A stretch of DNA of 64,000 nt from Morchella semilibera (lineage: Eukaryota > Ascomycota > Pezizomycetes > Pezizales > Morchellaceae). Below the pieces are notes generated by a model, which saw only the letters and a list, made by a program, of their open reading frames with translations, ran no database searches and was not told the origin of the DNA. This document shows, in pieces, positions 5,510 to 64,000 of this stretch. The position numbers and the translations under genes are program-made. Position 1 is the first letter of the stretch, and every line of letters begins with the position of its first letter. The stretch lies in NCBI GenBank assembly GCA_009192285.1, contig WBVU01000012.1, positions 930,001 to 994,000 of the forward strand. Direction: 5' to 3'.

Positions 5510-5518
5510 GGTTGCACT
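5510..5518. repeat. Target-site duplication, left copy (GGTTGCACT)
   Basis: The nine bases GGTTGCACT immediately precede the left terminus TAGTCTCG of the 8.8-kb transposon. An identical nine bases follow its right terminus at 14324-14332. This fixes the element boundaries. Confidence 0.9.
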
Positions 5519-5597
5519 TAGTCTCGTGCCCATCCCCTATTTTGGTGTGGTTGGAGATGTAGTATTTTTTTATGTATCCACACCAGTAGGGTCTGGA
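5519..5597 (+). repeat. Left terminus with subterminal hairpin
   Basis: Begins TAGTCTCGTGCCC. Inside it, TGGTGTGG (5543-5550) can pair with CCACACCA (5578-5585). TATTTTTTTAT and GGGTCTGG are shared with the inverted right end. Such ends are likely transposase-binding sites (inference). Confidence 0.8.
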
Positions 5598-5736
5598 GCA
5601 ATAACTTTCCGGAATTACCCGGGAAAAGTCCGAAAGTTTAAATTTCCGTGATGACTAAGCACGGTTCTCCGCTTGGGTGCCCGCCGTCTCTATGACAACC
5701 GAGCACCTAAGCCGCACTAATAACATTCGCCGCCCT

Positions 5737-5856
5737 CGGTGCCATTTCTGTGTCCGCCGGTATCATTTCTGTGTCCGCCGGTGCCATTTCTGTGTCCGCC
5801 GGTGCCATTTCTGTGTCCGCCGGTGCCATTTCTGTGTCCGCCGGTGCCATTTCTGT
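5737..5856 (+). repeat. 21-bp tandem repeat, about 5.7 copies, inside the left end
   Basis: The unit is close to GCCATTTCTGTGTCCGCCGGT, with one variant unit at 5762. Because 21 is a multiple of 3, the array is open in the transposase frame and would encode CHFCVRR repeats if translation began at 5677. More likely it is a 5' subterminal array, matching the tandem array inside the right end. Confidence 0.85.
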
Positions 5857-5868
5857 ACCCTATTAGTG

Positions 5869-8620
5869 ATGAATCGTACGTTTGATATCCCTTTGGCAGG
5901 GAGCTCTCCCGATGTTAGAATCATTGCAGTACTCGGGTTCATTCGAGAGTGCGAGTTTCGTTCTATCAACCATTTTCTTCTCGAGTTGTTCGACTCGCAA
6001 GTCCCAGAAGTGAAGCGGAGGGTAGCTCTCGTGTGTGCTGCAAGGCGGGATGGCTTTGATGAAGTGATATCAACCTGGATTAAAGACCCTCGCACTGCGG
6101 AGCATGTTGAGAGAGCTACACCCGGTAGATTGATTGACCCCCCCCCCCCCCCAAACCGAGAATCTATTAGACTAACGATATAGTAGAATTCAGTTCTCGT
6201 GCTCGGAAAGAGCTCTTCCAGCAGCTCGCCGCCGAGCTTACTCTTCTCGGGGCTGATGATAGTCCCTTGAGATTACCATCAACTGCCTTCTCAACATACA
6301 ACTGGGAGAGCTTTGACTACGTTCAATTAGCGGAGAAATATTCGACCAAATCTCCAACGGTATTCCGACTTGTCAAGTTTCTTTCAGGGCTTTCGGGACC
6401 CGATGATATCGTGCAGCAGCAGATTGATGATGATGTGGACGATAATGATCCTTTGATCCAAGAACAAAGAAACAGGGTCCTGGAAGCAGGAATACCTCCG
6501 GAGACGCCCGAAGCTCGGAGGCAAAGGAAAGGCCGGGACAGACTGCGGATAGCCACAACCGCAATGGGCATCATTACCTTCTCCCGCTCTAGGAGAGCAA
6601 ATATTCTACAGACCACTTTGGGCTTTTTTGCGTATGCATCACGGACCCCTAAGAGAGTTATAAGTGTTTTAAATCGTCTCGGAATCACCTGTTCATATGA
6701 AACTATACTGGAATCCCTCCGTTCTAGCGCTACCGGTACTAGAGCAGCTATCAAAAAGCAGTGCCAGGACCGACCGTTTCTACTAACATACGATAATTGG
6801 GACCCTTATGTAAAGGTTATTGATGAACGTCTACATAACAAGAACATCCTGCATCATGCTACTCTTGGGGCTGTAATATACCTCCGGCAGAAAGACGGCA
6901 CCCCCTGGACTACTCGCTCGGAGTTTGATAACCCCCCAGCGGAAAGGCCCCCGGGATCAAGCCCGCTGTGTTCTATACCAAGCCAGTCCTGGGTACGCTC
7001 AGAGCTCATGATCAACTTCAACGCTCAAGATCTATTGGTACCAATCTGGGAAACTCTGAATAATCATTGGCCCATTGTCGGGGAATATCACATCTCCGAG
7101 ATCCTCTGGAAGTACGCCGGAGAAGAAATGATAAAATCAGCCCACAAGTCTCGTCTTCAAATTCCTGAGATTCACAAGTTGGCCCCGACCAAGGCGGATA
7201 CATTCACTTTACCGGCAATTGATCAGAATGAGGGAACCTTGGAGGGAAACGCCGCAATATGTGATATTTTATTAGAGGAATTATCGATAGACAAAGAAAA
7301 GGCTAATACGGACTGGTTAATACCCATATCTGGAGACCAGTTGACTGTATCCCGCCTCCGAACACTCCAATTTCTCCGAGAACATGATATTGGTGTACAC
7401 CGTCTTACTTGGGTTCATCCAATAGCGGGCCTGTTTCATGTCCGGATGGCAACACTTCGAATGATATTTGACGCGCATGAGGGTTCCGAAGATGGCCGGG
7501 ACCCCATCTCCCTCCGGCGATTTGCGCTATTATTAGGTCGGACAGGGATATATGTAGGAGATAAAACAGCAGTAGACTTCCATAAAACACAATCCTTGCT
7601 AAACCAGGTTATCGATGCTCTGTTCCTTTGTTGCGCAATGACGAAACTACAGGTTACGGACATAAAAGCCTTCCGGGAAAAGTTGATTCTTGTCGATTGG
7701 CCTGAAATGGTTCAGGGGATTACCAGGGAGTAAGCCCGCCCCTCTCCGCCGTTATTGATAAGGACTGCCTCTCATCTCCAAATAGGATTCTCAACCCGCA
7801 AAAAGTCGCCTATCTTAGGACTGAGGATACAGCCAGCCGTGATATGGTGCATGAAAACGCTATTCTTTTACTCCAGCATGGTATAGTAGCAAGAGAGTTG
7901 GCCCGGGCGATTAAAGATGGGGATACCGGCCGGGCTTCTATCATGCTCCAATACTTATCCTTGATGTTCCAAGGAAGCCGGCAATCAAAATACGCAATTG
8001 AGATGCTGGAATGGTCCGCCGGAATGCTCCGGACTTGGTCTAAAGACATGAAACTGTAACCCCCCCCCCCCCCTTCCGCCCCTATCCCTCTGTGGTTTTA
8101 TTAATATTGAGTTAGGCTTTGGTTAAATCACTGCGTAGTAAATCTGAGCGGCAGAGAAAGCAAATTTATACCAGTAGACCAGTACAATGAATATATCGTC
8201 CGAGAGGTTTCCGATAGTCATAATCCTAGGAGTACTGGTGCGACTGATAACTTTTTACGCACTGTGATCGCCCCGAACATTATCAACTTTAGTAACGTCA
8301 AGAGAAGAGTCGCAAAAGTAGCAGGTGCTATTAATTACGGGTCTAAACATAGCGCCATATCGGAGACTGTGGACGTTGAACGATTGGTGGCCGACTTAAT
8401 TAATAGGAATGTTTTCATATTCACCCCCGGCCGGGACCATATTGGTTCCGTAAAAATAACAGAGGCTACTGATTTGTGGAGTAAGGGATGGGGGAAGCTG
8501 CGATCTGGCCTCCCCATTGCTGAATTGATGGAAAGAAAAAATCACCGGCTTGGCGATTCTGGAGAAGATTTGGCTGATGAGCTTGGTGTGAGTGTAACTG
8601 TTGATAATGATGAAGAATAG
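5869..8620 (+). CDS. DUF6589/Academ-like DDE transposase, four exons, about 856 aa
   Basis: Exons inferred at 5869-6105, 6171-7729, 7786-8055 and 8116-8620; all phases agree and no stop intervenes. Introns: GTTGAG...TTAG (65 bp), GTAAGC...ATAG (56 bp), GTAACC...TTAG (60 bp). The start MNRTFDIP follows a 21-bp repeat array; an in-frame ATG at 5677 would add the repeats to the protein. Candidate catalytic residues (inference): D287 in LLTYDNWDPYVK, D468 in IPISGDQLTVSR, E714 in FIPVDQYNEYIVRE. HPIAGLFHVRMATLRMIF lies between the second and third. This pattern fits proteins I remember as DUF6589, common in fungi and tied to Academ-type transposons. Introns 1 and 3 each contain a run of about 15 C. 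The product would act in the nucleus, cutting and joining the element ends. Confidence 0.8.
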
Positions 8621-8719
8621 GATCAAAAAATATATTATTAGAACCCTATTTAGCTGGCCCAATGTGGTTGCCGGGGGCGCTGGACTCCGCCGGAGTTTTC
8701 TCGCGCCTTCGCCTCTTAG

Positions 8720-11232
8720 CTACGGGGCCCTCCGGAGCTTCCGCTCCCTTTTTCTTCTTGTTGCGGGATCCAAGGGCCTGCCCACATTAGTCCTTTTTGT
8801 AGCAGTTGTATTTGTGATATTTTCAAGAGCCTCTCTTTGTGAAGGTTCTCCGTTATCCTGGGGCGGGGGTTCTTTTCTTCTCCGCATGTTCCGAGCGCTA
8901 CGTATTTCCTGTGCCATAGCGGGTATAGCGACCACTGCCGCAGAAACTTCGGCAAAAACAGGGTCATTCCTACCACGAGGTCGTGGTAGTTGGAGACCTG
9001 GCGTGCTAAGGTATGCATCCGCCTCTAACACATAACGTTGGCTCGGGGTTGCAGGGAGTAGCGGAGGGGGGGTTGGTGGCCGACTACGGACATATCTTTG
9101 GATCCCGCTCACAAGCCTCTCGGCTCCAGCCTCGAGCGGGGAAAAATCCAAGTTATATTCGGGAAGCAATACAGCCTCTAGTTCCTTGACAGATTTGATT
9201 TCATTTGCATATGTTGCTATCCTCAGGATTTCATTAGGCCCCATTAGCCAATTATCAGGCAAAACAGGGAAGAATTGGGGCTGGCCCGGAGAGACAAATA
9301 ATTCCGCGAATCGTCGGCGATTCCATCTATGCAATTCCGTACTAATATGTGCTATTTGGTTGGGCGTCGCGGACGACACCAGGCCATGTGATCTCTTTTT
9401 GATTGCGAGGGAATTAATAGCGAATGGTGAAAACAACTCTAATGGTATTTGATCTCGCACTGTGATATTGAGATCCGGGTTCGATGTCAAAACATGGGAG
9501 AGGCAATTATCGCAGTTTTGGCATCCAATACCTTGAACGGGGAAGCCTCTGGGCTCTCCTGCAACCTCGGGGCGATTAAAACTTTGACCGGAACCCTTGT
9601 CGTCCATCAAATATAGTGATAGTTGCCGGCGACATCCTGTGGTAGATATCCACCAAAGTAGTTGGGCGTCGACAGACTTGAGCCTCTTAATCTCGGCGAC
9701 TGTTACGGATCCCCGGACCCCATTTAACGGAATAGCTATTTGTTCCGCATATATTCCTTTCAAGAACTCTTCGCAACCGGGTTTAGCTGATTGGCGGAAA
9801 CGTATAAAGGGATGCCCGTCTTCGCGGCTGACAGACTTGTCCTTCTCATAGAAAAGACAGACTGTGCCCCTAAGCTTTGGGTCTCGTGCACATCGCCCGA
9901 ATCGCTGCCACAGAGTGTCAAATGCACCAATGGGTATTTTGTATTGTATGACTCTCACAACATCGCGGACATTAACACCCATCCCAGCAGCATCTGTGCA
10001 TATGAGAATACGGATCCCCCCATCGATAAATAGCTTCATATTCGCCTCATTAGCCGCATCGGAGATTATTGACGAGTAAGCCCGTACAATCGGAAGATTT
10101 CTCCAGCATCGGGGCAACTTGTTTATTAGTCTTCGGACAACTGCTTGTGCCCCAACCCTGTTATCGATAAACACCATAGTCTTCGGAATATCTTCCCAAA
10201 ACCACTCTGGTACCAAACTTCCTGGTGGAGAGTCCGGCAGAAGCATATCCAGATCGGCATATGTATCAACCGGGTTTCTAATCGGTGCGCATGCTAGAAA
10301 CAAGTTTGGTCGGTCTACCGATTCCCGTATCAAGATGGTATCATGAGTCAAATGTAGGCTTCTATGCGTAAAATTAAGGGCAGATATAGATAGTGTTGCT
10401 GACAGCGCCATAAACGGGGTCTGCGGGAAAAATGCGCGTAAAGACCCAATGTTGGAGTACTCGGGTCTAAATGCCGGCCCGGAGTCTGAGGCGCCCCATT
10501 TGAAGATGCAATGAGCTTCATCCACCACTACAGCGATCAAACGTTCCCGAAAAGTGGAAGTCTGGCAGTTGACTACTTTCCAGAATTCCGAATTGTCTGG
10601 TCTGGTCATTTCGGGAAAGGCATACACAATCTGAAACCGTCCATCTCGGACCCTTTTTATGAGATCCGGATCAGATTGTAAGGATTCTCGGGATAAGTAA
10701 CAAGCTCGTATGCCCTGCGCTTGCAAGCCTTGAACCTAGCCGCTATATCAGAGAAGTCGAATCGGATATATACCATCAACTTACCTGATCTTTCATCAAG
10801 CTGGTGATAGGGACGATAACCAGTATCAATTTCGACGGCTGGTTAGCAATGAGCGCCTGGAAGGCTATACTTTTTCCTCCGCCAGTGGGCGCAATTACCA
10901 CAACATCCTGGCCGGAGGTGACCAGAAAGCCCGATTGGGCTTGCCAGTCGTGAAGTTCGAAACCAAGCTTGCGGGAAACCTTCCGAGAGTAAGAATCCAG
11001 GGCATTTTTCTCCTGTCGGGTGTATATTATCTCTTCCACAGGCAAAAACCGGGCAGGAAGGTGGACAACGCGACCCAAAGGGGCCGGGAGAAATAGGTGT
11101 GTCTCTCTCTGCCGCTCTCTGAGCATCACCAATGGTATCTGGATCGACGTATCCATCACGAGCGGCGTATTCACTAAGAGCTGTCAGTCTCTGACGAAAC
11201 GACAAGGCTGTCGCTGCCCTCTTGGGGGGCAT
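8720..11232 (-). CDS. RecQ-like superfamily 2 DNA helicase carried by the transposon
   Basis: Main body: exon reaching 10795 (minus), a 59-bp intron (10794-10736, GTAAGT...CTAG), then an exon 10735-8720. The join gives SLMKDQVQGLQAQGIRACYL, the usual RecQ motif Ia region. Motifs seen: Walker A APTGGGKS, DEAH box VVDEAHCIFKWG, motif III ALSAT, motif VI QRFGRCARDP, and a RecQ zinc-binding set (CRRQ...GIGCQNCDNC). A basic tail ends the protein. The 5' end is uncertain: ATG at 11174 is in frame with the helicase, while an ATG at 11232 opens a protein-like stretch (MPPKRAATALSF) in another frame, and I see no intron that joins the two. Gene ends face the transposase (convergent). A RecQ-type helicase could unwind element DNA during excision or repair (inference). 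Confidence 0.85.
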
Positions 11233-11798
11233 CTTGAACTCACAAGCTGCTCAGAGTACCAGAGCAGGAGCGCGACAATGTGCGCGAAGAGGAGCGCGAT
11301 CTCGTGAGATTATGGGCGGCATCATGGGGGCTCCAGAAAAGTCTATTTTGCATGAGACCGGGGTTCTATTGCTGGACGCGGATTTTTTTTGGCAGGGGTA
11401 CCGGGGTTTCCCCGCACAAAAACTGAACAAAGAAACCCACCGCCAAAGTTCCGGCGGAAGAAAAGACTGCGAATAAAGTAACCCGGATGTAATTTTAACA
11501 CTACCTTAACTGTAATTAACAATAATAACCCGGAAATTGAGACTGTCAGATAAAACTATGTGAAGAATGATGAAACCCAAACCGATATAAATGCCCTAAA
11601 TCCCATAGTAAACACTCTAATAATAGTAAAAAAAAAAAATATACCCCGAAGTAGACCTAAGAATGCACAGAACGACCATAATATATAATATATACTTCCC
11701 GAAAACTAAATTAAGAATGTTGGAACTCGACGAAAAACCTTGGAGGACCTGATATGGATTAAGTTAAACCCGAAGATCCTGGAGGGGGGGTCGACCTA

Positions 11799-13752
11799 TT
11801 AGAGTGAGGCTCCCTTCATATGGCTCATGTTAAGAGCCGGGTCTGGGAGGTCCTCCGAGTTTACACGATTGGCATCGCTGACCTGTGTATTCGGAACAGT
11901 GTCGTCGTCAATATTGACCGAGAACTGGTCTTGGGTGTAGATATCGGGGATGCTACTGCTAGTTGCACCCCCGCGAGACTGTTGATAAGGTATAGGCTTT
12001 GCATGGTGACTGCTGTACTTCTGCAATGGTGAGCCGTCAACCCCCGGGCCAGACTCGGAACCAAATCGCCGACTAGTGGGTGGGGTTACAGCATTATGAC
12101 CATGCTTTGAGCTCCCTTCTCCACTCCCATAGAAAAGTGGGGATTGGAATGTGGTACTCAAGCGACGATGGGCCTCCGAGGGGGTTCCAATCCCCGACTG
12201 GTCGTCGTGATTCAACTGTTTGAGCATCATACCTAGGGAGCCCGGACGACGCTGAAAACTACCTACAGCAGCTTCAGCTTTGTTATATAGGGCCTGATCC
12301 TTGGAGACAACCGCCCGCCTCTCTTTGACCTGCGTCTCCACCTCGAAAGCCTTTCCAATAATCTGCTGATACTTTGCCATCATCACCTTCATTCTCTGCT
12401 CGGAAGATTCCACCGCTCTTAGAGCATGCTCGGCCTCCTCCAGACGATTACTCGCAACGACAACATAATGTTTCAAAGTGTTCATTCGGCTGCGGAGGCG
12501 TTGGATGGTATACATCACGAGCCCAGAGATATTGAGTTGCGCAATCATATCAGACTCCTCATTACGATAGGCAGTGTCCACTGAAAGTCCGACCTCAATA
12601 CCCGGGGCATCAAACAAATCCGAACATAACTTCAGCGCATCCTCCTCATCACAAGCTTGCGCGGCCCACACATTAGAAAGATCCTCATCATCGAGATCTT
12701 CTTCTTGGATGTCCAAAACGTGGCTATGGTGCCCATTGGACGAAGTAACACTGATAGGGGCTTCTTCACCGGCAGGATTGAGATATGAGCCCTTCTTTCG
12801 AGGCCATACCTCATGAGCGAGTCCCCAACGGATCGGAAGATTGTTTGCAAGGAAAGGTAAGTTGTAAGGTGGCCAGCCCGCAACATCCATACGAGTGCCG
12901 AACTCGAAGTCGACCATAATGGCGTTAATACTGTAGTTGCGGGTGGTGATAACAACCCCGCTGGCGATACGGCTAACGGTCCTATAAGTGCTTTCCTCGA
13001 GGATATCCAGCCAATTGACTTTGTATCTGTCCGGATTATCGAGGCAGGATTCGTCGACGAAGGACAAGATAGGCGCCCAAATAAAGGCAATATCTGAGGG
13101 TTTGAGCTTGAGATGCTCTTTACTCAACTCGATGTTCTCAAAGGGCCTCGGCTTTCTACCCTTCTTCTTCCGGGCTTCTTCAGCTGCGGACCAGGCCATT
13201 TGAACGTTACTGTCACCAAACCTCTCGACGAGAGTGTCCGCGTAGGTCCGGAGGTTGCCTATGATGACCCTGCTCAAGTCCGAATCGAGTGCTTTGAGCT
13301 CCGAAACCATCTCAGGGGATAGGTGTTGCATTCCGACCGGCAGTGTATGCAGAATGAGGACCTCGAACCAATGGGCTGGAATAGGCCGAGCTTTGAAGTA
13401 GATGATTGCCAAAAGAAAGCGAAGGAGTTTTCGGTATTCTTCGGGAGACTTGAAATCGCATTATTAGTAGGGAATCAACTTTAACGGACCTGATTGAACC
13501 TACGTCGGACGATTTCATCCTTGCAAGAATACTATCTGGGAGCCAAGTCTTCATATTTGGCGGGGGAACGGGATCCTTTTTCTTGGAGATTGGAGTTACT
13601 GGTACCGGCGCTTCAGGTTCCCCCACTCTCGCCTTCTTTGGGCCTGGAGTAAGTGCAGCTTTCGGGGAGGGTGAAGATCTCCGACCCCGTTTACGCGTAG
13701 CTCCCGGGTCAGTGGGCGTCTCGCTTACGGCTTTGCCCTTGTTACCGGCCAT
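11799..13752 (-). CDS. Third transposon gene: basic N-terminus, coiled-coil protein of unknown function, about 632 aa
   Basis: Exon 1 13752-13504 and exon 2 13448-11799, joined across a 55-bp intron (donor GTAGGT, branch CTACTAAT, acceptor CAAG) that keeps phase and gives RMKSSD|SPEEYRKLLRFLLA. The first 60 residues hold nuclear-localisation-like clusters (TRKRGRRSS, GPKKARV) and many prolines. The middle, with ARPIPAHWFEVLILHTLPVGM and an aromatic stretch (MDVAGWPPYNLPFLANNLPIRWG), looks globular. From about residue 400 a heptad-rich coiled coil runs through RLRSRMNTLKHYVVVASNRL. The last 150 residues are Ser/Gly-rich and disordered. No known domain is recognised. It lies inside the transposon termini, transcribed with the helicase, so it is probably element cargo. 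It could be a second transposition factor or a structural partner. Confidence 0.75.
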
Positions 13753-14057
13753 CAGTGCTGAAGTTTTGAGTGTTCAGAAAGTTTGGGAGAAGACCGGTGT
13801 ATAGGGGAAGTGGGGTGATGAATGGGGATACGCGATGTTTGGTGTTTGAACGCGGGGTATTTGGCTTGGCTTAGCTCACGTTGATTCACAGGGTTTCTTT
13901 CATCACCAAGTGGGTAATTTTCATCACCGATCAGAGCTACTATGCACTTTTTTCCTCTGTCCCTATGTACACAAGATAGAGCTCGTTAAATACTGTCGGA
14001 GCCACTTTCAACTCCGACCGGTCTTATATCACTTCCCTAAACGATCCTATTCTATCA

Positions 14058-14145
14058 GGCGGGCTTCTTTCACCGCCCGCGCGGCCTTCTTTCACCGCCC
14101 GCGCGGCCTTCTTTCACTGCCCGGGCGGGGCTCTTTCATTGCCCG
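14058..14145 (+). repeat. About 22-bp GC-rich tandem repeat inside the right end, about 4 copies
   Basis: Unit close to GCGCGGCCTTCTTTCACCGC, with two diverged units at the right. It sits about 180 bp from the right terminus, much as the 21-bp array sits about 220 bp from the left terminus. Confidence 0.8.
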
Positions 14146-14259
14146 GATGACTAATCAAAATCCCGGAGACGCTAACCTTCCCGAAACGGCGCTAACAGCC
14201 CCGAAGTGGCGCTAGTATTCCCGAAAAAAGGACTGGTACAAGCTTTTTGGGTAAGCACA

Positions 14260-14323
14260 CCAGACCCTTCCGGTATTGCACACCACAATAAAAAAATACC
14301 GATTGGGTCTGGGAACGAGACTA
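14260..14323 (-). repeat. Right terminus with subterminal hairpin
   Basis: CCAGACCC (14260-14267) can pair with GGGTCTGG (14305-14312), and CCGGTATT (14270-14277) with AATACCG (14295-14301), giving a two-part stem. The element then ends GGGAACGAGACTA. The outermost bases match the left end inverted. Confidence 0.8.
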
Positions 14324-14332
14324 GGTTGCACT
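14324..14332. repeat. Target-site duplication, right copy (GGTTGCACT)
   Basis: Exact copy of 5510-5518, directly after the right terminus CGAGACTA. Confidence 0.9.
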
Positions 14333-16072: not shown

Positions 16073-16093
16073 TAGTCTCGTGCCCAGCCTGTG
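16073..16093 (+). repeat. Orphan terminus related to the 8.8-kb transposon
   Basis: TAGTCTCGTGCCCAGCCTGT starts like the left end of the 8.8-kb element (first 14 bases identical). No partner end with a matching target duplication was found. Confidence 0.6.
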
Positions 16094-17086
16094 ATTGATT
16101 CTCTTCGCATTACACGAATCGCAAACAACGACGAAACTACAGATTCCAGCCAATCACGACACTTGATATCTTCCTGGGCGCCATTTTTTCGCCGTCCATC
16201 AGGCAGGATGACTCGAATCTATTAGTGGTGGGACTAAGGAAATTCAACCCACTAGCTCGAATTAACGTGCTGCACCTACCCCGCGTAGGCCGCATGAACG
16301 CCGCTTCAACCCACCTTCGCTCAGAGCTACTGAGTCCAGATCCTAGAAAATACATAACTGTAAATTGTGCACACCACCACTCCCATAACCATAGAATAGG
16401 ATCTCATTTTCCCTATTTCCTTTTTCGGGGCTGGCTATGCTGAACACGTCGATTGTCCTCACTGTCTAAGACTAAGACTAGGACCAGGACCAGGACCAGG
16501 CAGGACCTAGCTTACTGCAGGTGAAAAGTCGCAAAGTAGGTCTTTGCTGGGTTCGTGACGGGTGGTGCCAACAGTCGCAGATTGTTGCATTTTGCACCTT
16601 ACGAAAGACCAAACGAAATAAATTTCTTTGGTGATACTAAATAGCATCTAGCAAAGGAGTACCGTAGAAACTTGCCAACCTGACTATCTCCGTGCAGGGA
16701 CTTCCGTTTGATTGGCTGAGGTAGAGACCAGCCTTAGACATTCCCATTAGAGTAGAAGAAGCTAGTTTCTGACTAAAGTTGCCATACTACATAGAGCCAG
16801 TGATGTCACGATATTTGGTCTAAAGGTAAATATAAATATCAGGACATTGCACAGATACAAGATTTGCTACTATCAATAAATGCGAGTGATATATTATGAT
16901 TAAACATGTAGTACATTATCTCCCAGATGCTCTCTCATGCATCAGTTCGGGTTCATAAGCCAATAGAAAGTGTTTGAGTCATATGACTCTCAACCTCATT
17001 ATTACAACGGAGTCCCAACATTCAAAACCCATACCAGTACTGCGTGAGTATTAGGAGAGATTGATCCTAATAGAAGGGAGGAATCT

Positions 17087-19015
17087 GTGAGCGAACGCCC
17101 AATCAAAAGGCCAAGGGTAGAGTTGCCAGTAGGCCCACCAGAAATCTTCGTTCCAATACCCTATATTGAGCATGCGAGTAAGGCCATGCTACCAGAGGGA
17201 GTTCAAGATACTTTGACGGTCCTATATCATTCTTCAACCTATTTTAGGATAACGAGATATGCAATATTAATACATTACTTGCAGCTACGAGTGCCTATGG
17301 GGATGCAAGAAGTACTGGAAATAGCCGGGACTTGAAGGATCATATTAGCCGTAATGAATTTCAGATTTTTCTTGGTATATGTATTATCATGGGAGTATAG
17401 TAGTACACGCCCCATCTGCCCGGAAATATTGGACGTTACGGTTGGTTTCTTCTGGAAGAAGACAACGCCTCATGAGCTATATGCGATACTACCAAACTTG
17501 CTGTTTCCTACATATCTCTACCGGATGCAACAGGCAACCTTCCTTACAAAGACTGGGGGGAAAAAATGGAACCACTTAGCTCTCACCTAAAGCGGTGTTC
17601 CCAACAGCTTTATCTACCAAAGACACATGTTTTGGTCTACGAGATGATGGTACGATGTTCTGGACGAAGCCGCCATACAGTTAGGATACCAAGTAAGTCA
17701 ATTTCGGCAGGATATAAGATCCTAGTTCTATGTGATAGTGGTTGTATGATAAACTGGTTATTTGTTTCTCGTACAGAATCTATTGCCGAACTCGAACGAG
17801 ATTTACCCTATTACCTACATCTTCAGCTGTAATTGCATTAATACTACATCAGCAAGATTGCCTCTGTCTCCTGATATTTTTTGGGTTTCAGGAGATTCAG
17901 GGGACTCTCAGGGGACCCAGGAGACTGTCAGGAGACCCAGGACGATCCAGACATAAATTGTAAAGCTTGCTGATGTACTGAATATGATTATGTATTGTAT
18001 ATAGATAATGGCTTTTCCGGTATCGTGGTCCCGTTGTTCAGAGAGCTGCGTCGGTTTGGAATTGATGCATGTGATACTACGCGGGTTAATAGTCCTGAAT
18101 ATCCCTCAAAGTTAAAGTACGATACTCCACTTGTACAATGGAATACCATAGATGGTTTAGCTGTTGGCGAACTAATGCATGGTGTTTTATGTGTACGCTG
18201 GATTGATAACAACATATTGTTCATATGTTAGCAACAGTACATCCCTGAGGAGAAACCATATTGCGAGAGGTGCAAACCGAGAAGCACCAGTACCAATGGT
18301 ATTGCTGCTAGGGAGGCATTCGGAGAGAAAGAATGCAAGTCCTTTTATATACCTACATGTACATTCATTGACGATTACAACAATCACATGAACGGCGTTG
18401 ATTTGGCAGATTTTGCAAAGGAGAGCCCAATATACAACTTATAAGCCTTCAAGACGGAATTGGATTCCTTTCTTTTATGCATTTTTAGATATATCTATAT
18501 TTAATGCATTTATTCTCTTCAGTATGACGAGGATAGCTGGACTGAACCGCCTCCTCGACACACGTCAATTATGTAAAAAATCGTCCTTTAAGTCGGCCTT
18601 ACTCTGCAGAATTATTCCGTCATTTTCTGTACAAGCAGCTGTGTGAACCAGGCCCGGCTCAAAGGACTGCTGCTGAATTAAAAACAGTATAATTCCGCAA
18701 GGAGAGAGAGTTACCATCGTCAACAGACCCAGTTACAGCCCAAACGAAGAGTGTTGTATTTCGCGGAAAGCACTGGCATCGCTTCCAAAAAGAATATTGT
18801 TATTAATATATCAGGTCACCAACTGCAGAAACTACAGAAGCAAAGAGGATGTGCAGTCTGTCGATACAATTTTCGGAAAACAGGGCCTGCTGGCCGTCAT
18901 CGTCCTAAATTAACCCGGTATGAATGCGCCCAATGCTCTCCTCCAGTTGCGCTCTGTGGGCCGGGTCGCAGTAGTAAATGCTTCCAAGAGTGCATAAAAC
19001 AGGTTAGAAATATAT
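17087..19015 (+). pseudogene. Decayed piggyBac transposase (DDE_Tnp_1_7 type)
   Basis: Pieces in three frames follow the piggyBac order: a polar N-terminus (17087 on), ISRNEFQIFLGICIIMGV (about 17340), VDEMMVRCSGRSRHTVRIPSK-like catalytic region (about 17640), YIDNGFSGIVVPLFRELRRFGI (about 18000), IDDYNNHMNGVDLAD (about 18370), RNWIPFFYAFLDISIFNAF (about 18460) and a cysteine-rich C-terminal zinc finger (CAVCRYNF...CAQC...CGPGRSSKCF, about 18850-18990). Several stops and frame changes break it, and an imperfect repeat of GGAGACYCAGGG type interrupts it near 17890-17945. Terminal repeats and TTAA flanks were not identified. The copy is inactive. Confidence 0.8.
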
Positions 19016-21034
19016 AACCCATATCAAATAACTGCTAATATCCAGTAAAGCATAAGGTCGCAAGTGGAGTCTAAGTCAAGTAAATTGAGGTTGAGGTCGC
19101 GGGGTCGCGGGGTCGAGGTCGAGGTCGCAGGATCAAGATAGAGTAGGTTGGGTTAGACTAGAGTTGAACATGACAGTTAGCAAGTATAGCATCTGTACAA
19201 AGCCAAGCAGTAGTAGTAATTCATGGTCATAATGACTACCGGCTTCATGACTTGATATCAGGTGACCTGCCAAGACCCTAATGCATGAGAGAGATTTCGC
19301 TAGCTTTCGAACATCCGGGAGATAATTCCTTATATGTGTGAAGCTTGTACATGTAGTTTCTAACCACATGTAGAAGTACATACTACATGTATGTAGCCTA
19401 TATGAGACTACATGTAGCCTTCCCCCTGGTATTAGATATTGGTAGTTAGTCGCGCGCACACGTATATATTGGATTGGTCTTGAAGCCCTAGTAAGCGGAT
19501 TGAGAGGATTGTCACCTGCGTAGTACATCCGGTTTCTTAGTATGATTTCCGTACTCCAGCTGCGGCGATGTGAAAACTATATGTATTAACGATTTAGGGC
19601 CACGATTTTGCTAGCGTTTGTTATTTGTATGGCCATATGGGGGACATATGAGTCAACTGTTCGATCCTCACTCAGGGGTTGAAGTTATATAAAGTGGTTC
19701 GCCCTTAGACCTACCAATAAAAATATAATTTCAACTACGGCGACATTGCTCAAGAGAATATTACACCATACGCAATACACACGGCGAGAATTAATGCATC
19801 CACCACATGAGATATATGTTCATGTTGGTTAGGGCCCGCTCGGAAATTCGAACGACTTAGGGCTTAGAGTCATCTGGCTCACCAGGACCACAGAATAGTT
19901 CGCGCCTTTAACTCTGGGGTCTCAACCTCAGTCTAGGTAGGTCAAGGGTTCTGCTAAGTTTAAATTAGTTAGAGTCTCTGTCACTAACCTCGATGCACCA
20001 AGTAGCTTAGAAATTATCTGTTAATAGGCCCTTTGCGCAAAGACTCCAGAGTCTTTTTCTACTTGTGTGCTAGAACCTACCAGTTAACCTTAAACCATTG
20101 ACGGAAATCACTATGTCGTTTGCCTCAAGCCTTCATCTTTTCATATTTGCAAAAGCTAGCAAGTTCCTAGGGCCATATGGAAGCTTCAAAGCCCAAAATC
20201 CGGGGAATGTTTTGGGGGCGATGGCCAGGTTACGCATAAGCTGCGAAGAGAGATTGATGCCCATGAGATTCGAGCCCGGTCTCTTCTTCGAGGAACTGTC
20301 CGGGGCTTACATTGTACGGTGGGCAGGCTAAGGGATGATAGCTCGGTTAGCTGTGACAATATGGTTCCGAAGCTCCATTACCCTCAGATGAATATATGTA
20401 GGTACTTATCTTGAAGCAACCTTCCCACATACATAGGTTTATGCCAATATAGGCAAGCCAGGAGTTGAAAGTTCAGCCAACCAAGAACAAACGTGGGGAA
20501 CACATGATGTCACAAGGCCACCCACCCTGTGGACGACTAAATGTTCCTGAATAAACGCCCATATGTGCTGTATAGTACCCGCAAAACAGCTCTACCTCGG
20601 ATGGTCTCCCTAAAGCGCCCGACCGATCACCACATTGGCATCCCTTCCTCCTCTGCTCCCTATTTCTAGCACGCCTGCCTGGTCTTCACGGATCAACAGA
20701 GTTGCGTTTATTTAATCAACATACCAGTAGTCCGTTAGTTTGTGTACTATACCGAAAAAGGCTCTTACGAGTACGACTTATCCTATTACCAGAGTACAAA
20801 GAAACCTAGGAGTATACACCACACCCTTCTATTTCAAAGGTCCGGGATTACGTGTGATCCAGCTGTCCTCGCCCCTACAAATCCTCAGCACATCCCCCGA
20901 GCTGCTGTTACTGATTCATCAGCCGACCAACAACCTTCACAATCTACAAACCTCCTCTCGCTCTTTCCCTCCAAACCCTCCCGCAATCTTACATACATCT
21001 CACTCAAGATAAGCTCATCCAACACTAGGATATC
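19016..21034. other. Intergenic; includes 5' flank of MAF1
   Basis: A GGTCGAGGTCGCGG-type minisatellite lies near 19090-19130 and four ACATGTA motifs near 19347-19411. The last 300 bp, rich in C and T, are the likely promoter and leader of the gene at 21035. No other gene seen. Confidence 0.5.
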
Positions 21035-22151
21035 ATGAAGGTTCGTATCATGAGCTTCCGATCATTGCCATGCACCTCGGTTGCGCATCACCTGCATCGT
21101 TGGCATCTCCCCTCGAACGTCCCCTGAGCTGACACCTGCACCTTCTAATACATGTAGTTCCTACCACTCCGCGAGTTAGATGTTATCAACCGTGCCCTCG
21201 TCTTCGACACACCAGACTGTCGGGTCGTTGGCGGATGTGACATTTACACCACCAAGGTCGCTATTCCCAGCTCATTGTGAATATGTTTATACAGAAAGAA
21301 AAACCATAAAATGAAACATATAAAGCTTGTTTACAGCTCGATATCAAGCTAACATTTTGCCCATTAATTTTTTTTTACCTGGGCATTGATACGTTCAGGC
21401 CGCCGGCGCTGATAAGAAGTTGTACAAAAACATTTCCAACACTATCACCAACCGTTATGAAGCCGACCTGAGACTATCAGAGTCTCTATCGCCCCCTAAA
21501 TCAACTGCAACCTCGACGGCAACACTCGGGAGTAAGAACCAGTCGAGGGCAGTTTATCAAACCCTCCATTCGCCGTTTGGACCGCTCGACCAGATCTCTG
21601 CTCGGCGCACTTTCGCTTATCTTATCGCAACCCTGAACGCTTCCCATTCGGACTACGATTTCTCTACTGTTTTAAAACCCTCTGACTTTAGGCGTGAGAG
21701 ACATTTGAGACCAGTTATGAATAACTTCAATACTACACTCTTTAATCTTGGCATGAACCCTTACAAAGCCTTGCCTAGAATGTGGGACACTATCGATAAG
21801 GAGATGGACCTTCTCAATTGCAACATATACACCTACTTGCCCGACGATGTATCCGATGACCCGTATGGCGAAGAGGGTCTCATATGGTCTACAAATCTCT
21901 TTTTCTTTAATAAGCATAAAAAGAGAGTTTGTTACTTATATCTGAGAGGGTTAAGCTCACTATCGCACTCGCCGATGGAGATCAACCGAGTGGGCGGATG
22001 GAGGGCAGACGTGGGCGGTGTGAGTTCGGGACATGAAGGATGGGATGATAGTGATGACGATACATTTGACGATGAACTCCAAGAGAGCTCAAGTGTCTGG
22101 GGAGGGGATGAATACGATGACGATGGGTTCTTGGAAACGATGGAGGTCTAG
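21035..22151 (+). CDS. MAF1: MAF1, repressor of RNA polymerase III transcription
   Basis: Three exons: 21035-21040 (Met-Lys only), 21158-21256 and 21399-22151, all in phase, giving 285 aa. Exon 2 reads [20 protein letters not shown] and [11 protein letters not shown], the conserved MAF1 N-terminal box. Exon 3 opens [12 protein letters not shown] and carries [28 protein letters not shown]-like [55 protein letters not shown], matching the second MAF1 box. The tail is acidic ([11 protein letters not shown]), as in other fungal MAF1. Introns are 117 and 142 bp; donors GTTCGT and GTCGCT are unusual but the joins match the family exactly. Known role: MAF1 binds RNA polymerase III under nutrient limitation or stress and shuts off tRNA synthesis, shuttling between cytoplasm and nucleus under TOR/PKA phosphorylation. 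It looks intact. Confidence 0.96.
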
Positions 22152-22638
22152 GGGGCTAACGATCGGAACCAGCGGCCGCAGCGCACTGTGTTGGGTAGTG
22201 AATAATTTGTTGGCATCATTTCATCTTTATCTTTGTCATTGATGTCAATGCGCATCATTTTCGTCCTGTTACGCCTGGATTGTCATTTTGATTTTCTTCT
22301 ATTATGTTTGTTCCATGTTTTTATGGCATCGGCAGCGCTATGCCTTGTTTCGATGTTAGGGGTTAAGGGGATAGGCGGGTCTGGCTTGGTTCGGTTCGGT
22401 TAGGTATATGGCGTTTCAATGCTTCGGTGAGAGCGGGTGTTGAAATTTGGAGAGGGGCGTTGCCCTTACTTTCTTACCTCTACGTTTGTTTTATCTCATA
22501 GTTTATGCTGCTTGTATTAACAAGTGCGGGAGAGGGAATACGATATCAGTGATAATGATAATTAAGCGGCCTATTTTTTCTTGGGCGGGGGATTGGGGGA
22601 GTGGAGTTTTCCTAAGCTGTAATGGAGTTCAGGCAGCC

Positions 22639-23366
22639 ATGAACTTTTCGAAGTCAGGCGGACGGGCGTTCGATTGGGCGGTTCGCCAAGCCACTGACGC
22701 AATTTCTACCCAATTAATCCCAACCCCAAAATCCTTCCACTCTACAAACACTCACTTGTAAGTTTCTGGGCAAGATGCTTCCCCGAATGAACTCAAAAAT
22801 TCCCAAGCTCCTGCGCTCGAACATTCGGGGCCTTAAAACCCCTGCCGGTGCACCCCATAATAGCATTTACGACGCGTATCACTTCTTCACTCCCATGCAA
22901 TTACCCTCCCTCCACTGACATCACTACAGTGTCCGTAATGATCACGACTTTCACACGCTCCTCCGTCTCACTACTGCTGCCTCCCTTCCTCTTCTAACCC
23001 TCTGGACAACTTCCTACTGCCCTAGCTGCCGCATAGTTAAGCCACTTCTCTCGGAGATCCTCGAGCGCCGGGGTGTTGGGGTCGGGTTTGCGGAGGTGGA
23101 GTTGGATGCACCTGGAATGATGGATGTGGGAATGCGGTATACTGTACGATGATTTGGTTTTACTGGTTGGTTAGCGGCTAAATTGAGGTTGAGCGTAGGT
23201 TAACAAAGTACCAACACTCCTAGTGTTTAGTCGGGGTGAGGTCAAGGAAAGAGTTGTAGATGGAAAGATGCTGGCAGATCGAGTGACGATGGAGGCTCTG
23301 GTAGAGAGGGTCGCGGCCGAGAGGGAGGTAGGAAGGGGATGGCTAACTGGAGTTTTTGGTGGATAG
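22639..23366 (+). CDS. Small thioredoxin-like protein with CPSC motif, three exons, 166 aa
   Basis: Exons 22639-22757 (donor GTAAGT), 22930-23143 (donor GTACGA) and 23199-23366, all in phase. After a short N-terminal part that could be a mitochondrial presequence (MNFSKSGGRAFDWAVRQ), exon 2 gives FHTLLRLTTAASLPLLTLWT, the active site SYCPSCRIVKPLLSEIL and FAEVELDAPG. Exon 3 gives VPTLLVFSRGE, the cis-proline strand of thioredoxin folds, then a C-terminal helix. CPSC replaces the usual CGPC. Role is inferred: a thiol-disulphide oxidoreductase or thioredoxin-fold protein, perhaps mitochondrial. It follows MAF1 by about 490 bp on the same strand. It looks intact. Confidence 0.85.
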
Positions 23367-23677
23367 TTAGGTATTGTAATCGCAGTTAATAGTCCTCTTG
23401 GTTTCGGAGGGTTTTCTGCAGGACTAAGGGATTTTTAAGCCTATCATCCACTGGCGATCATTGGCGCATTCCAATATCCAAGGCATTGATCAAAATTCGG
23501 GGGTTATAGTTCGAGTGATGATATATGAACCTCCTAGCTTTTCTGATAGCAAAATTTGTATGGGACCATACAAAAGACTACCTTGAAAACCACATCACAC
23601 ACCTGCAAAGCGAGTTCAAAGTCCTAGAACCCTCTGGGATTCATCTTAAGATAAGTATATACTTAATTTCTAATGTA

Positions 23678-23867
23678 CCCAGGGTGTTGGAAAGTGATGC
23701 ACATTTTGACTAGACAACGCCCAAATACTTTATCACAAAAGTACTAAGCATATACTTGATGAAGAGTATCTGCACACTCATATTTACCTTGGAATAGCCT
23801 GGTGTGGGGGTTGGTTCCCGTGTGGCTATGAAACCACCAAATGTGCATCACTTTCCGACACCCTGGG
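23678..23867. mobile_element. Tc1/mariner-like MITE, family A, copy 1 (190 bp)
   Basis: Ends CCCAGGGTGTTGGAAAGTGA (left) and its inverse (right, TCACTTTCCGACACCCTGGG), flanked by TA on both sides. Inverted repeats of about 30 bp, one mismatch. A second copy lies at 58088-58448. No coding capacity. Confidence 0.85.
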
Positions 23868-24107
23868 TACATGTACTTACTTAACATGTATCCATTATGA
23901 CTCTCGGCTGGGCCTAATATTATGTAAACAGCTACAATACATGCATGGGTGTTTCAAGGAACCAGCGATAAGAAAACACAGTCGCCATTCGAAGATGGCC
24001 CAAGTGAACAAGTTGTCCGCTCTTGAGGTGATATACCACGGGTCTCAAGTATAGACAATCATTATTCAGCATATGATACAACCACGCCAAAACATTACGG
24101 TAGTAAG
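23868..24107. other. Spacer between MITE and orphan ORF
   Basis: AT-rich, two ACATGTA motifs near 23870-23890, no gene recognised. Confidence 0.4.
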
Positions 24108-24779
24108 ATGTACCAGTATTGCTATACCCAATACCTCTATGGATATGAGTCCTCATCTGGACAATATGTCGTTATAGAGTGTCATGATCCTAAGCCACAT
24201 GCACCGGGTAACGGGAACCGTCACCAATGTAGCTGCCGACAGCTTTTGTCCGGCCACGGATATCAAGGGTCCGAGCGCTGTCCGGAGTGTTATAGCAAAC
24301 GGTCCGAAGACTCGCGGGATATTGAAAAGGTCTATGGAAACACTGGTAGTCTAGTGGAACGGAAGGAGCACAAGCATAAGAAAGTCAAGAATACTTTTCC
24401 CGGGCTTGCACCTGTAGACAGGAGTATTGAAGATGAGTGGGAGGATGCTAGTTCACGTCAGACTTCTTATACGGAACTGCATCAAAGAGAGGAGATTTCG
24501 TCTCCAACCTATGCCAGTACTGAGAACAATCCCAACATCTTGGTATTCGACGGCTGCAATGAAAGCTCTGGAGGCGGAAGACTATCGCCAGATCTAATCT
24601 TTGAGCTGGAACTTAACTATCCAGATTCTGAGTCCAGGGCATATATCTCAGAGGGGAAATATACGGATGAACTTGTCTGTAGCTCCCAGGGGTGCGTTTT
24701 AAAACCAAGTGTAGGCACAACCCAACCTGTATCTGTGGTATTCTTCTTCTGCTTACTTTGGCTTAGCCCTCTATCCTAG
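24108..24779 (+). CDS. Hypothetical protein, 223 aa, Cys-rich N-terminal part
   Basis: A single open frame from ATG at 24108. Residues 60-85 hold CSCRQLLSGHGY and CPECYSKR, a spacing that could bind zinc. A lysine-rich patch (KEHKHKKVKN) and an acidic, Ser-rich middle follow. The last 20 residues are hydrophobic (VVFFFCLLWLSPLS), perhaps a C-terminal anchor or read-through past a missed intron. No family recognised. The length of open frame and the codon pattern favour a real or recently lost gene, but this is not proven. Confidence 0.4.
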   Translation: MYQYCYTQYLYGYESSSGQYVVIECHDPKPHAPGNGNRHQCSCRQLLSGHGYQGSERCPECYSKRSEDSRDIEKVYGNTGSLVERKEHKHKKVKNTFPGLAPVDRSIEDEWEDASSRQTSYTELHQREEISSPTYASTENNPNILVFDGCNESSGGGRLSPDLIFELELNYPDSESRAYISEGKYTDELVCSSQGCVLKPSVGTTQPVSVVFFFCLLWLSPLS

Positions 24780-25081
24780 TAGATTACAGTCGCCGGCGAT
24801 ATCGGTTACCAGCCCCCATACTTGGTCCTGGGGGCGCGGTTCGCCAGAATGCTCGTCATTCTAGCGTCTAGAATTCTGATTAGATAAGTTTTGTGATGAT
24901 TAGGGCGGAATCCTGGAGTAAGAAAAGTCTTTTTTTTCAATCTTTAGATCGTCTGACTATAATGTTGGGTAGGGGTAGAGTCGCTAGTGTAATAAGAATG
25001 ACCCCTAGTTGGCTACAGGTTTTAGGGTCTCGTAACGAACAATAAAATCTTAATCTTGATTAGCTTTTATGAACAATAGAG

Positions 25082-25102
25082 CACAGCCTGGGCATGAGAC
25101 TA
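25082..25102 (-). repeat. Orphan right-hand terminus related to the 8.8-kb transposon
   Basis: CACAGCCTGGGCATGAGACT then A. Its inverse matches the orphan terminus at 16073 at 19 of 21 positions. The flanks of the two sites do not match. Confidence 0.6.
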
Positions 25103-36677: not shown

Positions 36678-37839
36678 CTATTGCTTGCCGCTTGCAGTGG
36701 AACCCGTTTGAGATGAAGAACAAAGGCTCGAAGTTGGTTGAAAAAACTTGGTGAGTTTTTGCTGGGGTAAGATGAGGAGTTCTTGAATTTTTTTAGATTC
36801 CACACTGCGACGCATCTTGGTAAGTTCTGATAGACTGTTTGTGGAAATATTGGCGGAATCCATTTGTAGGAAGTAGCGTTCTAGGTGAAGAAGGTGATCA
36901 AGTGCGGCTTGTGTTGTTATTAAAGGATAATTTGTCCCACTCTCCTCCTCAGTATCCAGGGTGACTTGTTCCTCTCGATTGATTGGCATATAATGTTCGA
37001 GGATATTGGCCTGCCAGATATTAATAAATACTAGTAGAATTTACTTTATGATTAGTTTTACTTACTTCTACTGACTCCAAGCTATCCTGTACCTGCTCCT
37101 CAATAGGATTCAAAAACCTATCAATATCCATTCTTTCTTGAATAAAGTTACCCTCACACAACACAGTCATCTTAGCCTGTACCTCCGCTCTGATTTCAAC
37201 CATTTCCTCTGTATTTTCGGGCAGATTTGGAATAACTGAAACATCAAGCTCAGGCTGTATTATGCTGGATTGGTTCTGCCCGGAATTGAGACTTTGTTGA
37301 ATTGGAACTCTCAAATTCAATGGGCGTTGGGGGCCGTAAAGCTTAACACTGCTTTTGGTAAAGCAGTTAAATATGGTAGAACTTTTAACATCATTATTCC
37401 ATGCTTCCACAGCCCAATTTATCGCTTGTAGCATTGAAACCTCCGTAATCTTTGCTGACCCATTTTGATCAAGTTTTTCAACCTCCTTAACCAAGTACCG
37501 GATGTAATGTCTTCGGGTATAGGCCTTCCATGAACTGATAATACCTTGATCTAATGGCTGCCAAACTGAAGTTGTATTTGCAGGATGCCATATAATTCGT
37601 GTATTCTCCAATTCATTGCCAATAAGTTTTGCCGCAAGTTCGTGAGCTGAAAAATTGTCCATCAATAAAACCACCTTTCGACCTCTCATTTTTCTATCAA
37701 ACCAACGCAAATAATCAACCATGATATCATGTTTCATCCATGCGGTTTGATTATGTCGATAAATAACACCGAGAGCCTCTCGATTAATATTTTTCATACA
37801 CCGAGGATTTTCAGCTCGTCCCATAACCCATGGTGTAAG
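36678..37839 (-). pseudogene. Pogo-like DDE_1 transposase, N-terminus cut off by an LTR insertion
   Basis: Frame from the insertion point: TPWVMGRAENPRCMKNINRE, then LGVIYRHNQTAWMKHDIMVDYL, VVLLMDNFSAHE (second catalytic Asp), WHPANTTSVWQPLDQGIISS and ILEHYMPINREEQ. Exons run to 37066 and from 37010 to 36678, across a 55-bp intron (donor GTAAGT, branch CTAAT, acceptor GCAG). The C-terminal segment AALDHLLHLERYFLQ is typical of the tail of pogo/Tigger proteins. The first catalytic Asp and the helix-turn-helix DNA-binding part should lie upstream of 37839 and are not present. The remaining frame is open, so the loss is recent. Confidence 0.85.
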
Positions 37840-38233
37840 TGTAAAGGGATATCTCAGGAGTCACTAAGATATGGCTAATGCTAAGCGATAGTTCTGTAGC
37901 TTTTTAAACTTGTAATATTGTAGACCGGATTCCGTTCGCTTGAGAGGATGATGATTCCCCTAAGACGACGGGAATCCTACTAGCTATTTATACATAAAGA
38001 ACCCTCTTAAACCCGCTAACTCCCCCAATAGCAAATCTCCCGCAATGCCTCCGCTACTGCTCCGACTTCCTACGAGGTGGGGTAATCCAAGGGTCCTCTC
38101 GTAAGGTGTGGTAGCGGTTGCCGAGCTATAACCGAACCCCGCTTCTTGGTGTGCGTCACTCTTTCATCGCGCTGTCATACCAGGACAATACCATTGTACT
38201 ACTAGCACCGCACTTCCAAGCAATCCTGTAACA
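37840..38233 (-). repeat. Gypsy LTR, copy 1, 3' LTR (394 bp)
   Basis: On the element strand it begins TGTTACAGGATTGC and ends CCCTTTACA (TG...CA). A purine-rich tract just inside it (right side) is the likely plus-strand primer. Confidence 0.9.
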
Positions 38234-38326: not shown

Positions 38327-41300
38327 TTATTGCTTTGTTAACCGTCGCTGCCTCTTAGTCTGCCGTGCTCCGGACTCCGGGGCTACTATGCCTTGACTCC
38401 GAGTGCGAGGACGGTTGGTGGTAACCGGTTTGGCGTTATCATCAACCAGTGCCTCTTGGGGCTCTGGTGTTGCCAGCCGTTTGCGCGTGTTCTGCTTCCT
38501 GTTGGGGTCCAAATCTTCTCGATAAGGTCGTAGGAGCATCTCATGGAACACATGATAAACCTTCCAGTCTGCTGGTAGGTCTAGTCGGTATGCGCGATTG
38601 CCAACCTTTGCTAGTACTTCGAAGGGTCCAATGAACTTGTCTGACCACTTGTTGTATCCGCCGAGGTTCCGTGTGTCTAACAGGACCTTCTGCCCGGGCT
38701 CGAACTGTTGTACTGCGGGACCAGGTCGTGACGCCATTTTATCGTACGTTCGCTGTAAGGTTTCCCGAGCCAGTTCATGGGCGGCGAGGATCTCGTCCAG
38801 GTGGTTATTCCCTTCGGCATCCAGCTGCTCAATCTCCACATCCGTAGGCCAGTCTGAACGAGGGTGAAACCCATAGTTGCAATAGAATGGTGACTGCCCG
38901 GTGGAGGAGTGTTTGGCGTTGTTGTAGGCGTACTCACAGATAGGGAGTAGGTCTCTCCACTTCTTACCTGTGCCGGCCGTAAACGCTTGTAGGTAGGACT
39001 CCATATGTTGGTTAGTCCTTTCCGTCTGACCATCTGTCTGCGGATGAAACGAGGTCGGGAGTCTTCTACGAATCCCTAGTCGTTCTGCAATCGCGGTCCA
39101 GAAGGCTGACACGAACTGTCTTCCTCGGTCCGATACTATTGATCGCGGGAGTCCATGAAAGCGCCAGATGTCTTTGACGAAGGCTTGTGCAGTTTGCTCT
39201 GCATTGATTCCTGTCATTGGGATGAAGTGCGCCATTTTACTGAAGCGGTCCACTACCACTATGACATTCCGGAAACTTGACCGCTCCTTGGGCATTTTTA
39301 CTACAAAATCCATGGAGATGTCGCACCAAGGGGTCATGGCTAACTCTAGGGGCTGTGGAAGAGACATATGTCGTCGTCGTTGTTTGGCTCTTTGGCATAC
39401 ATCGTACGTGCTGACATACTTGGCTACATCCGTGGACATTCCTGGCCACCAGTAGTTCCTGTCAATCAATTCCAAGGTTTTATCTCTGCCTAGATGCCCT
39501 GCCGTGGGTCGGTCGTGATGGTCTTCTATGACCTGCTTGACTGCATGCCCAGGCACTACCCAGCATCCTTCATGAGTCGCTGTATTCTGGTCGGGATCCC
39601 ACGCTGTTGCAGCCTCCCGCAAGATGGTCTGCCAGGTCCACAGGTCCTCAGGATCTTCGTTTTCGGGGAGTTCATCCGGAACTATCCTACGAGTCCATCG
39701 ACCCTCTTCCTCATATCAGTTCTGCAGAGCCGCAGGCATTCCCACTCCTGGTATGTGTACCCACTGATCCACTAAACGCACTTCCGATGAGGGATTGCAG
39801 AGGATTTCTTCACGAGGTTCTATTTCCGCTTGTGTCCTTCTTGCAAAATGTTCCGGGAGGAGGTTTCTTTCCGCGAAATGTTCAGGTGAGAGGAGCATTT
39901 TTACTGGCTGCTCTCGAACTACTCCCCCTTCTATGGCGTACTCCGGGCGCCTGGTCAATGCATCAGGTTTCCCGTTCTTGTCGCCTGGTCGAAAGTGGAT
40001 CTTGAAGTGAAAAGGTGCTATCTTTTCAGCCCATCGAGCCTGTCTTCTTGACAGCTTCTTGGTTGTCGTGAAGTACTGAAGGTTTTGGTGATCAGGATAG
40101 ATCTGGATAGGTATGTCCGTACCTTCCAGCCAATGTCTCCAAGTTAGGAGGGCGGAAACTATTGCGAGCATCTCTTTATCGTAGATCTCATAGTTGACTT
40201 CGGCCTCGTTGAACTTGCAAGAGTGGTAAGCCATCGGATGTAACTTGCCATCTTCGAACACCTGTGACAAGACCGCAGCCTCTGCCCAGTCGCTGGCATC
40301 TGTTTCAAGGACAGCCATGCGATGTTCGTCGTAGTGTCGGAGTATAGGAGCGGTGGTAAATAGCTTCTTGAGCCCCTCAAAAGCATCCTGCTGCTCCCGA
40401 CCCCACTTCCATACAGCATTCTTCTTCAGGAGATCTATCATGGGCTTGCATACCGCAGAATACCCGTAGATGAACCGCCTTAGGAAGTTGGCGAATCCCA
40501 AGAAGCATTGAAGCTCCTTCACCTTTGTGGGTATCAACCACTCAGTGATAGCCTTCACCTTCTCGGGTGAGACCTGGGTACCGCTACCTGATGGCTTGAA
40601 TCCTAGGAATTCTATCTCCGTTTATAACCAAGCAGTCTTTTTCAGGTTGCCGAATAGGTGGTTTTGTCGTAGCCGCTCCAGCACCCTGCGCACAAGAGCT
40701 ACATGCTCTTCTCTGGACTTGGAATATATCAGGATATCATCCAGGTAAACCACTAGGCCCTGATCTAACAGGTCCTTGAATATGGTATTGACCATTGCCT
40801 GGAACGTTGCTGGGGCGTTGGTCAAGCCGAAAGGTATTACTCTATATTCGAAGTGGCCATATTTGGTCCGGAAAGCTGTCTTCCACTCTTCTCCCTCCGT
40901 GATCCTTACTAGGTTGTAACCGTTCTTGAGATCCATCTTGGTGAAGAAGAGAGCTCCCTTCGTCGAGTCTGCCAGCTCTGTCATGAGAGGCAGTGGGTAC
41001 CGGTTCTTGACTGTGACGGAGTTTAAGCCGCGGTAGTCGACGCATAATCATAGTGACCCATCTTGTTTAGGGACGAAGAGGATTGGTGCCGCTGCTGGGC
41101 TGGAAGATGGGACAATTTTACCTGCCGCTAGCATTTCGTCCAGGTATTCCCTCAACACTTTTTGTTCCGGGGGTGACAATGCATAGATAGGACCCCATGG
41201 AGGTTGGCTTCCGTCCAAGAGGAGAATCGTATGATCCCACTCACTATGTTCTGGCAGGCGTCCTGCTCCTTCAGGCGAGAACACATCTGCGTAGTCTTGG

Positions 41301-42013: not shown

Positions 42014-42279
42014 GAGTTCTTACTTTACATCGGCAGTCTCTCCGCAGGGTTATGGCAAGTCAACAGTGCGCAGTGCGTCTACTGTCCGCTATCTGTGTGG
42101 CCCCTCTGATTTCCGAACTTCTAGACTCGAGTCTTGGATTCTGGCATTGGCCATCGCTTCCTTGCAGTATAGTTTTTATAAAGAGATTTATTTCCGCACC
42201 CTAATAACTATTTTCTGCCTTAGTCCGAAAGAAAACCCAAGAAATATAACAAATTTAATCTTCCCCAAGTGCCGTAATC

Positions 42280-44761: not shown

Positions 44762-44846
44762 TCACAAAAGGTAATTGATGAAGCGTTGTCTTGGGAAAGT
44801 AGTAGGTTTGCTTAGGAGGTATGCGACCGGATAAGGAACAATATAG

Positions 44847-45491: not shown

Positions 45492-45575
45492 TAACCCTAA
45501 CTAACCCTAACTAACCCTAACTAACCCTAACTAACCCTAACTAACCCTAACTAACCCTAACTAACCCTAACTAAC
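45492..45575 (+). repeat. Telomere-like array, 10-nt unit CTAACCCTAA, about 8 copies
   Basis: Perfect tandem units directly after the gap. On the other strand the unit is TTAGGGTTAG. The C-rich strand reads 5' to 3' on the plus strand, as at the left end of a chromosome. The unit is TTAGGG plus TTAG, unlike the plain TTAGGG of most filamentous fungi. Confidence 0.9.
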
Positions 45576-63985: not shown

Positions 63986-64000
63986 CATGTAGCTCTTGTG

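Follow-up and report, generated by a model that had tools for sequence, protein, structure and literature searches.

A helicase-bearing DNA transposon with a DUF6589-type transposase in Morchella semilibera, probably a new AcademH family

The stretch of Morchella semilibera DNA analysed here, 64,000 nucleotides long (assembly GCA_009192285.1, contig WBVU01000012.1, positions 930,001-994,000 of the forward strand; hereafter the window, whose own numbering is used), contains an element of 8,805 bp at positions 5519-14323, with an exact copy of GGTTGCACT on either side. We consider it a cut-and-paste DNA transposon of the AcademH lineage that is complete and potentially autonomous, and that probably represents a new AcademH family. 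The element carries three genes, encoding a DUF6589-type transposase (plus strand), a RecQ-like helicase and a third protein (both minus strand), the transposase and helicase genes lying tail to tail. Judged from its sequence, it is apparently undamaged and apparently autonomous, and its dinucleotide ratios are unremarkable for mutation resembling repeat-induced point mutation (by customary thresholds). The AcademH kind of transposon is already known from animals and fungi; what is newer here is the connection of DUF6589 with a transposon, the presence of a third gene, and another pair of matching tips (16073 and 25102) that has no duplication.

An initial annotation of this DNA had proposed inverted ends and an exact 9-bp target duplication, and both were recovered at the coordinates listed in Table 1. 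The 13-bp tips TAGTCTCGTGCCC (from 5519) and TAGTCTCGTTCCC (from 14323, minus strand) are identical at 12 of 13 positions, or at 13 of 14 when the next base is included, and GGTTGCACT occurs twice in the whole window, both strands counted, each time as a flank of the element. Further inside, local alignment found a candidate inner inverted block, located 44-78 bp inward of the left end and 25-64 bp inward of the right end. The window was scanned for a 9-bp repeat whose copies lie 100-20,000 bp apart and immediately flank 13-bp inverted ends that differ at no more than one position, the control being 100 dinucleotide shuffles of the window with N dropped. The only match was the element itself, and the shuffles gave none. 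With a looser setting (8-bp exact tip) the element was again the sole real match, and 6 were obtained in the 100 shuffles; the shuffle control covered these two settings. When three mismatches were allowed, two AT-rich matches elsewhere in the window were added. A duplication length of 10 gave no match in the window, and a length of 8 gave two others, at 46509/59684 and 44345/60339, whose 8-mers are palindromes within inverted repeat copies. The ends and the duplication exceed chance. The same is seen for coding capacity, as the longest open frames of the transposase, helicase and third gene have 520, 671 and 553 codons, compared with maxima of 202, 225 and 204 codons in 200 shuffles each.

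The four transposase exons join in phase without a stop, as had been claimed, through introns of 59, 56 and 60 bp, the product having 858 amino acids here against 856 in the initial annotation. This splice model was picked for short introns and an unbroken profile, and several alternative acceptors also leave the frame open. When the 858-residue protein was searched against Pfam with E up to 1, no families besides DUF6589 and, weakly, LTM were listed. The DUF6589 match covers profile positions 18-410 of 410, unbroken across the junctions, with 294.5 bits (E 1.4e-87), which bears out the earlier family call, and the separate exon frames score 144.8, 76.2 and 47.4 bits. Since the match runs continuously over the four exons, it supports the splice model. 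As a guess from the motifs, D289, D470 and E716 might form the catalytic triad. The comparison with the PDB gave three weak matches of unrelated kinds (E 0.26-0.66). Runs of 15 and 14 C (6138-6152 and 8060-8073) are located within predicted introns 1 and 3. DUF6589 is not mentioned in the open-licence PubMed Central full texts that were searched, and the term PF20231 retrieved only an unrelated optics paper there; Repbase, subscription papers and supplements lay outside this search, and therefore the link between DUF6589 and transposons may already be published.

The helicase model has one 49-bp intron, chosen among 11 open choices listed, and its 5' start is uncertain: an upstream start is possible, such as the ATG at 11232 with a further intron. 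In the first 661 amino acids Pfam recognises DEAD (E 6.3e-19) and Helicase_C (E 9.9e-13), and among the solved structures in the PDB the main exon is closest to WRN and RecQ (E 1.5e-18 to 1.8e-18), in agreement with the RecQ-like helicase proposed initially. The ATPase motifs expected with that proposal were also found, namely Walker A, DEAH, SAT, motif V, motif VI and the FRPEY loop, together with cysteines resembling those of the RecQ zinc site.

The third gene proved to be open as well, its model of 632 amino acids having one 55-bp intron chosen out of 5 open choices. All Pfam families were below the cut-off for this protein, and the PDB comparison of the main exon gave two matches at E 0.17 and 0.24 and no relative. 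Its N-terminus, as read from the sequence, is basic. Structure prediction for 407 amino acids of the main exon gave a mean predicted local distance difference test (pLDDT) score of 36.9, values above 50 being almost confined to a helix at model residues 334-399, and the protein probably has a coiled coil. In a viral contig collection the transposase, the helicase and the third protein gave 14, 3 and 4 pattern matches, respectively, and no relatives, and in a prokaryotic genome contig collection the transposase gave 68 pattern matches and no relatives; these negatives say little because of the content of the collections and because single-protein queries reach close relatives only.

AcademH was reportedly set out within the Academ superfamily by Kojima in 2020. 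AcademH elements are described as carrying a helicase and making duplications of 9 or 10 bp, a length that the author thinks is related to the helicase, whereas AcademX elements carry a nuclease and make duplications of 3 or 4 bp (PMC10045372). The element described here has a helicase, terminal inverted repeats and, at its one insertion, a 9-bp duplication; because these three features were tested and found, it is filed as probable AcademH. AcademX would belong to the same superfamily if this filing is right, and differs from our element in duplication length and in having a nuclease where ours has a helicase; nuclease families are absent among the Pfam matches (E up to 1) of the three proteins. 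Low-copy AcademH elements occur in Ascomycota, Basidiomycota and Mucoromycota (PMC10799480), and recognizable protein domains were reported in 1,568 of 1,938 fungal Academ copies, with DEAD/DEAH helicase and recQ_fam as examples, the share of recQ being unstated (PMC6416283). The AcademH lineage had been suggested in the initial annotation too, and there the helicase and the duplication agree, but the transposase is not part of that support. Its further idea, that a 9-bp duplication hints at a new branch, was not supported, since 9 or 10 bp is the AcademH norm in the published description (PMC10045372). By description, what our element may add to the transposase-helicase arrangement of AcademH is a third gene without known domain and the convergent layout.

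Several observations weigh against this assignment. It was made by setting the helicase, the duplication and the inverted ends beside published AcademH descriptions, and DUF6589 has no function assigned to it in Pfam. The likely first catalytic residue, D289, falls before the DUF6589-matched stretch, and a single-sequence structure prediction of transposase exon 2 reached a mean pLDDT of 34. RecQ_Zn_bind in the helicase is below the cut-off (13.3 vs 25 bits, E 0.14). The left and right subterminal arrays are built from different units with no 8-mer in common in inverted orientation, and so do not directly indicate a shared binding site. Finally, the element is known from a single insertion, and the tip pair at 16073/25102 lacks a duplication and lies around unrelated genes.

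Some of these points would favour a separate, undescribed superfamily of DUF6589 type that acquired its RecQ helicase independently of AcademH, a reading that we regard as improbable. It draws on the lack of an Academ label for DUF6589 in Pfam, on the silence of the searched open-licence text about this family, and on a filing made without the transposase; it is opposed by the joint occurrence of a helicase and a 9-bp duplication, which is the published AcademH combination (PMC10045372), and by the naming of helicase and recQ domains as typical of fungal Academ copies (PMC6416283).

Much less probable is KolobokH, or a related Kolobok element that carries a RecQ helicase; the Pfam matches of the transposase, confined to DUF6589 and the weak LTM match, offer nothing for it. 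Kolobok duplications are TTAA, in contrast to the 9 bp found here. KolobokH resembles our element as a DNA transposon with a RecQ helicase that was found only in fungi, and in Kolobok-1_CCri, one rhodophyte Kolobok family, the helicase lies on the complementary strand, as it does here; in KolobokH itself, however, the helicase is downstream of the transposase domain (PMC9587614). RecQ-like helicases are also repeated in fungal genomes as telomere-linked genes, and those are subtelomeric with no transposase in the descriptions consulted, whereas the helicase of our element sits inside inverted repeats beside a transposase. For a Mutator-like element (MULE) the chances are remote, as a helicase, which our element carries, is not known as a MULE feature and no MULE domain was found in the transposase (Pfam, E up to 1). 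Maize Mu elements do make 9-bp duplications, but their repeats are about 215 bp long, compared with tips of about 14 bp here (PMC2774946). A chance arrangement around cellular genes that are not a mobile unit, to which the single copy observed might point, has a negligible probability, given that no shuffle reproduced the layout and that the three open frames of at least 200 codons in this region all lie between the ends, with a tandem array at each end.

For the probable AcademH element, the duplication and the inverted ends lead us to infer cut-and-paste transposition with a 9-bp stagger. The DUF6589 protein would be a DDE-type transposase that binds the element ends, perhaps the subterminal repeats too, cuts the element out and joins it to target DNA cleaved with a 9-bp stagger; gap filling by host repair would then produce the 9-bp duplication. 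As the helicase gene sits inside the element, its product may participate, possibly by unwinding transposon-end or gap DNA in excision or repair. The third protein could be a nuclear accessory or scaffold, possibly a regulatory one. In a wider form, which we hold to be unlikely, DUF6589 might serve as the catalytic family in a distinct fungal lineage of helicase transposons with three genes. The coiled-coil protein would then be conserved as a third part of the transposition machinery, in addition to the transposase and helicase known from described AcademH elements. With these results, a Pfam family labelled as unknown gains a likely transposase function, which would aid the annotation of fungal genes carrying DUF6589. 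An intact helicase-carrying transposon is also a starting point for asking why a RecQ helicase is present in a cut-and-paste element and whether it sets the 9-bp stagger.

Table 1 Features of the element (positions in the window)
Feature	Position	Strand	Details
Left 9-bp target-site duplication copy	5510..5518	+	GGTTGCACT; sequence and arrangement scan
Right 9-bp target-site duplication copy	14324..14332	+	GGTTGCACT; sequence and arrangement scan
Left terminal inverted repeat tip	5519..5532	+	TAGTCTCGTGCCCA
Right terminal inverted repeat tip	14310..14323	-	TAGTCTCGTTCCCA; 13/14 identical to left
Tip sequence of the element			TAGTCTCGT
Inner inverted block, left	5562..5596	+	GTATTTTTTTAT...GGGTCTGG; local alignment
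Inner inverted block, right	14260..14299	-	Local alignment
Left subterminal tandem array	5737..5856	+	21-bp unit x 5.7
Right subterminal tandem array	14058..14146	+	22-bp unit x 4, unlike the left unit
Transposase gene	5869..8620	+	Exons 5869-6124, 6184-7729, 7786-8055, 8116-8620; 858 amino acids; DUF6589 at residues 377-769
RecQ-like helicase gene	8720..11156	-	Exons 11156-10785, 10735-8720; 795 amino acids
Third gene	11799..13752	-	Exons 13752-13504, 13448-11799; 632 amino acids; no family

Self-comparison found no further copy of the element in the window. With up to one mismatch allowed, the tip occurs four times in the window, twice as the element's own ends, and 25 shuffles together gave 1 occurrence. 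The other two form the second pair, at 16073 (plus strand) and 25102 (minus strand), TAGTCTCGTGCCCAGCCTGTG and TAGTCTCATGCCCAGGCTGTG, which match at 19 of 21 bases with the tips facing each other. The interval 16073-25102 was rejected as a second copy of the element: it lacks a duplication, and neither blastn similarity to the element nor a tblastn match (E below 1) to the element's proteins was found. The pair may consist of two ends in decay or be an old relative that is not autonomous; the finding is not refuted by it, nor does it count as an independent copy. A further tip-like place at 52459, with two mismatches, was dropped, lying within a TCTCG microsatellite. Inside the interval are a gene for Maf1, a regulator of RNA polymerase III (21390-22151, Pfam E 2.8e-56), probably a host gene, and a broken piggyBac-type transposase (17476-19014). 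When four pieces of this remnant were searched in Pfam, two gave DDE_Tnp_1_7 (one of them below the cut-off), one gave a weak zf-Tnp_2 match and one gave nothing.

Elsewhere in the window, Rfam and tRNA scans gave no matches. The inverted repeat copies at 40691-44813 and 59879-64000 are about 90% identical, and the open frame adjoining them, at 38330-39715, encodes integrase and Tf2-1-like SH3 domains, which suggests a Gypsy-type retrotransposon. A telomere-like array of TAACCCTAAC, repeated 8.4 times, occupies 45492-45575 beside a 555-bp run of N. In another open frame, at 37021-37860, Pfam detects DDE_1 (E 1.3e-39), a transposase domain that we take to be pogo-like.
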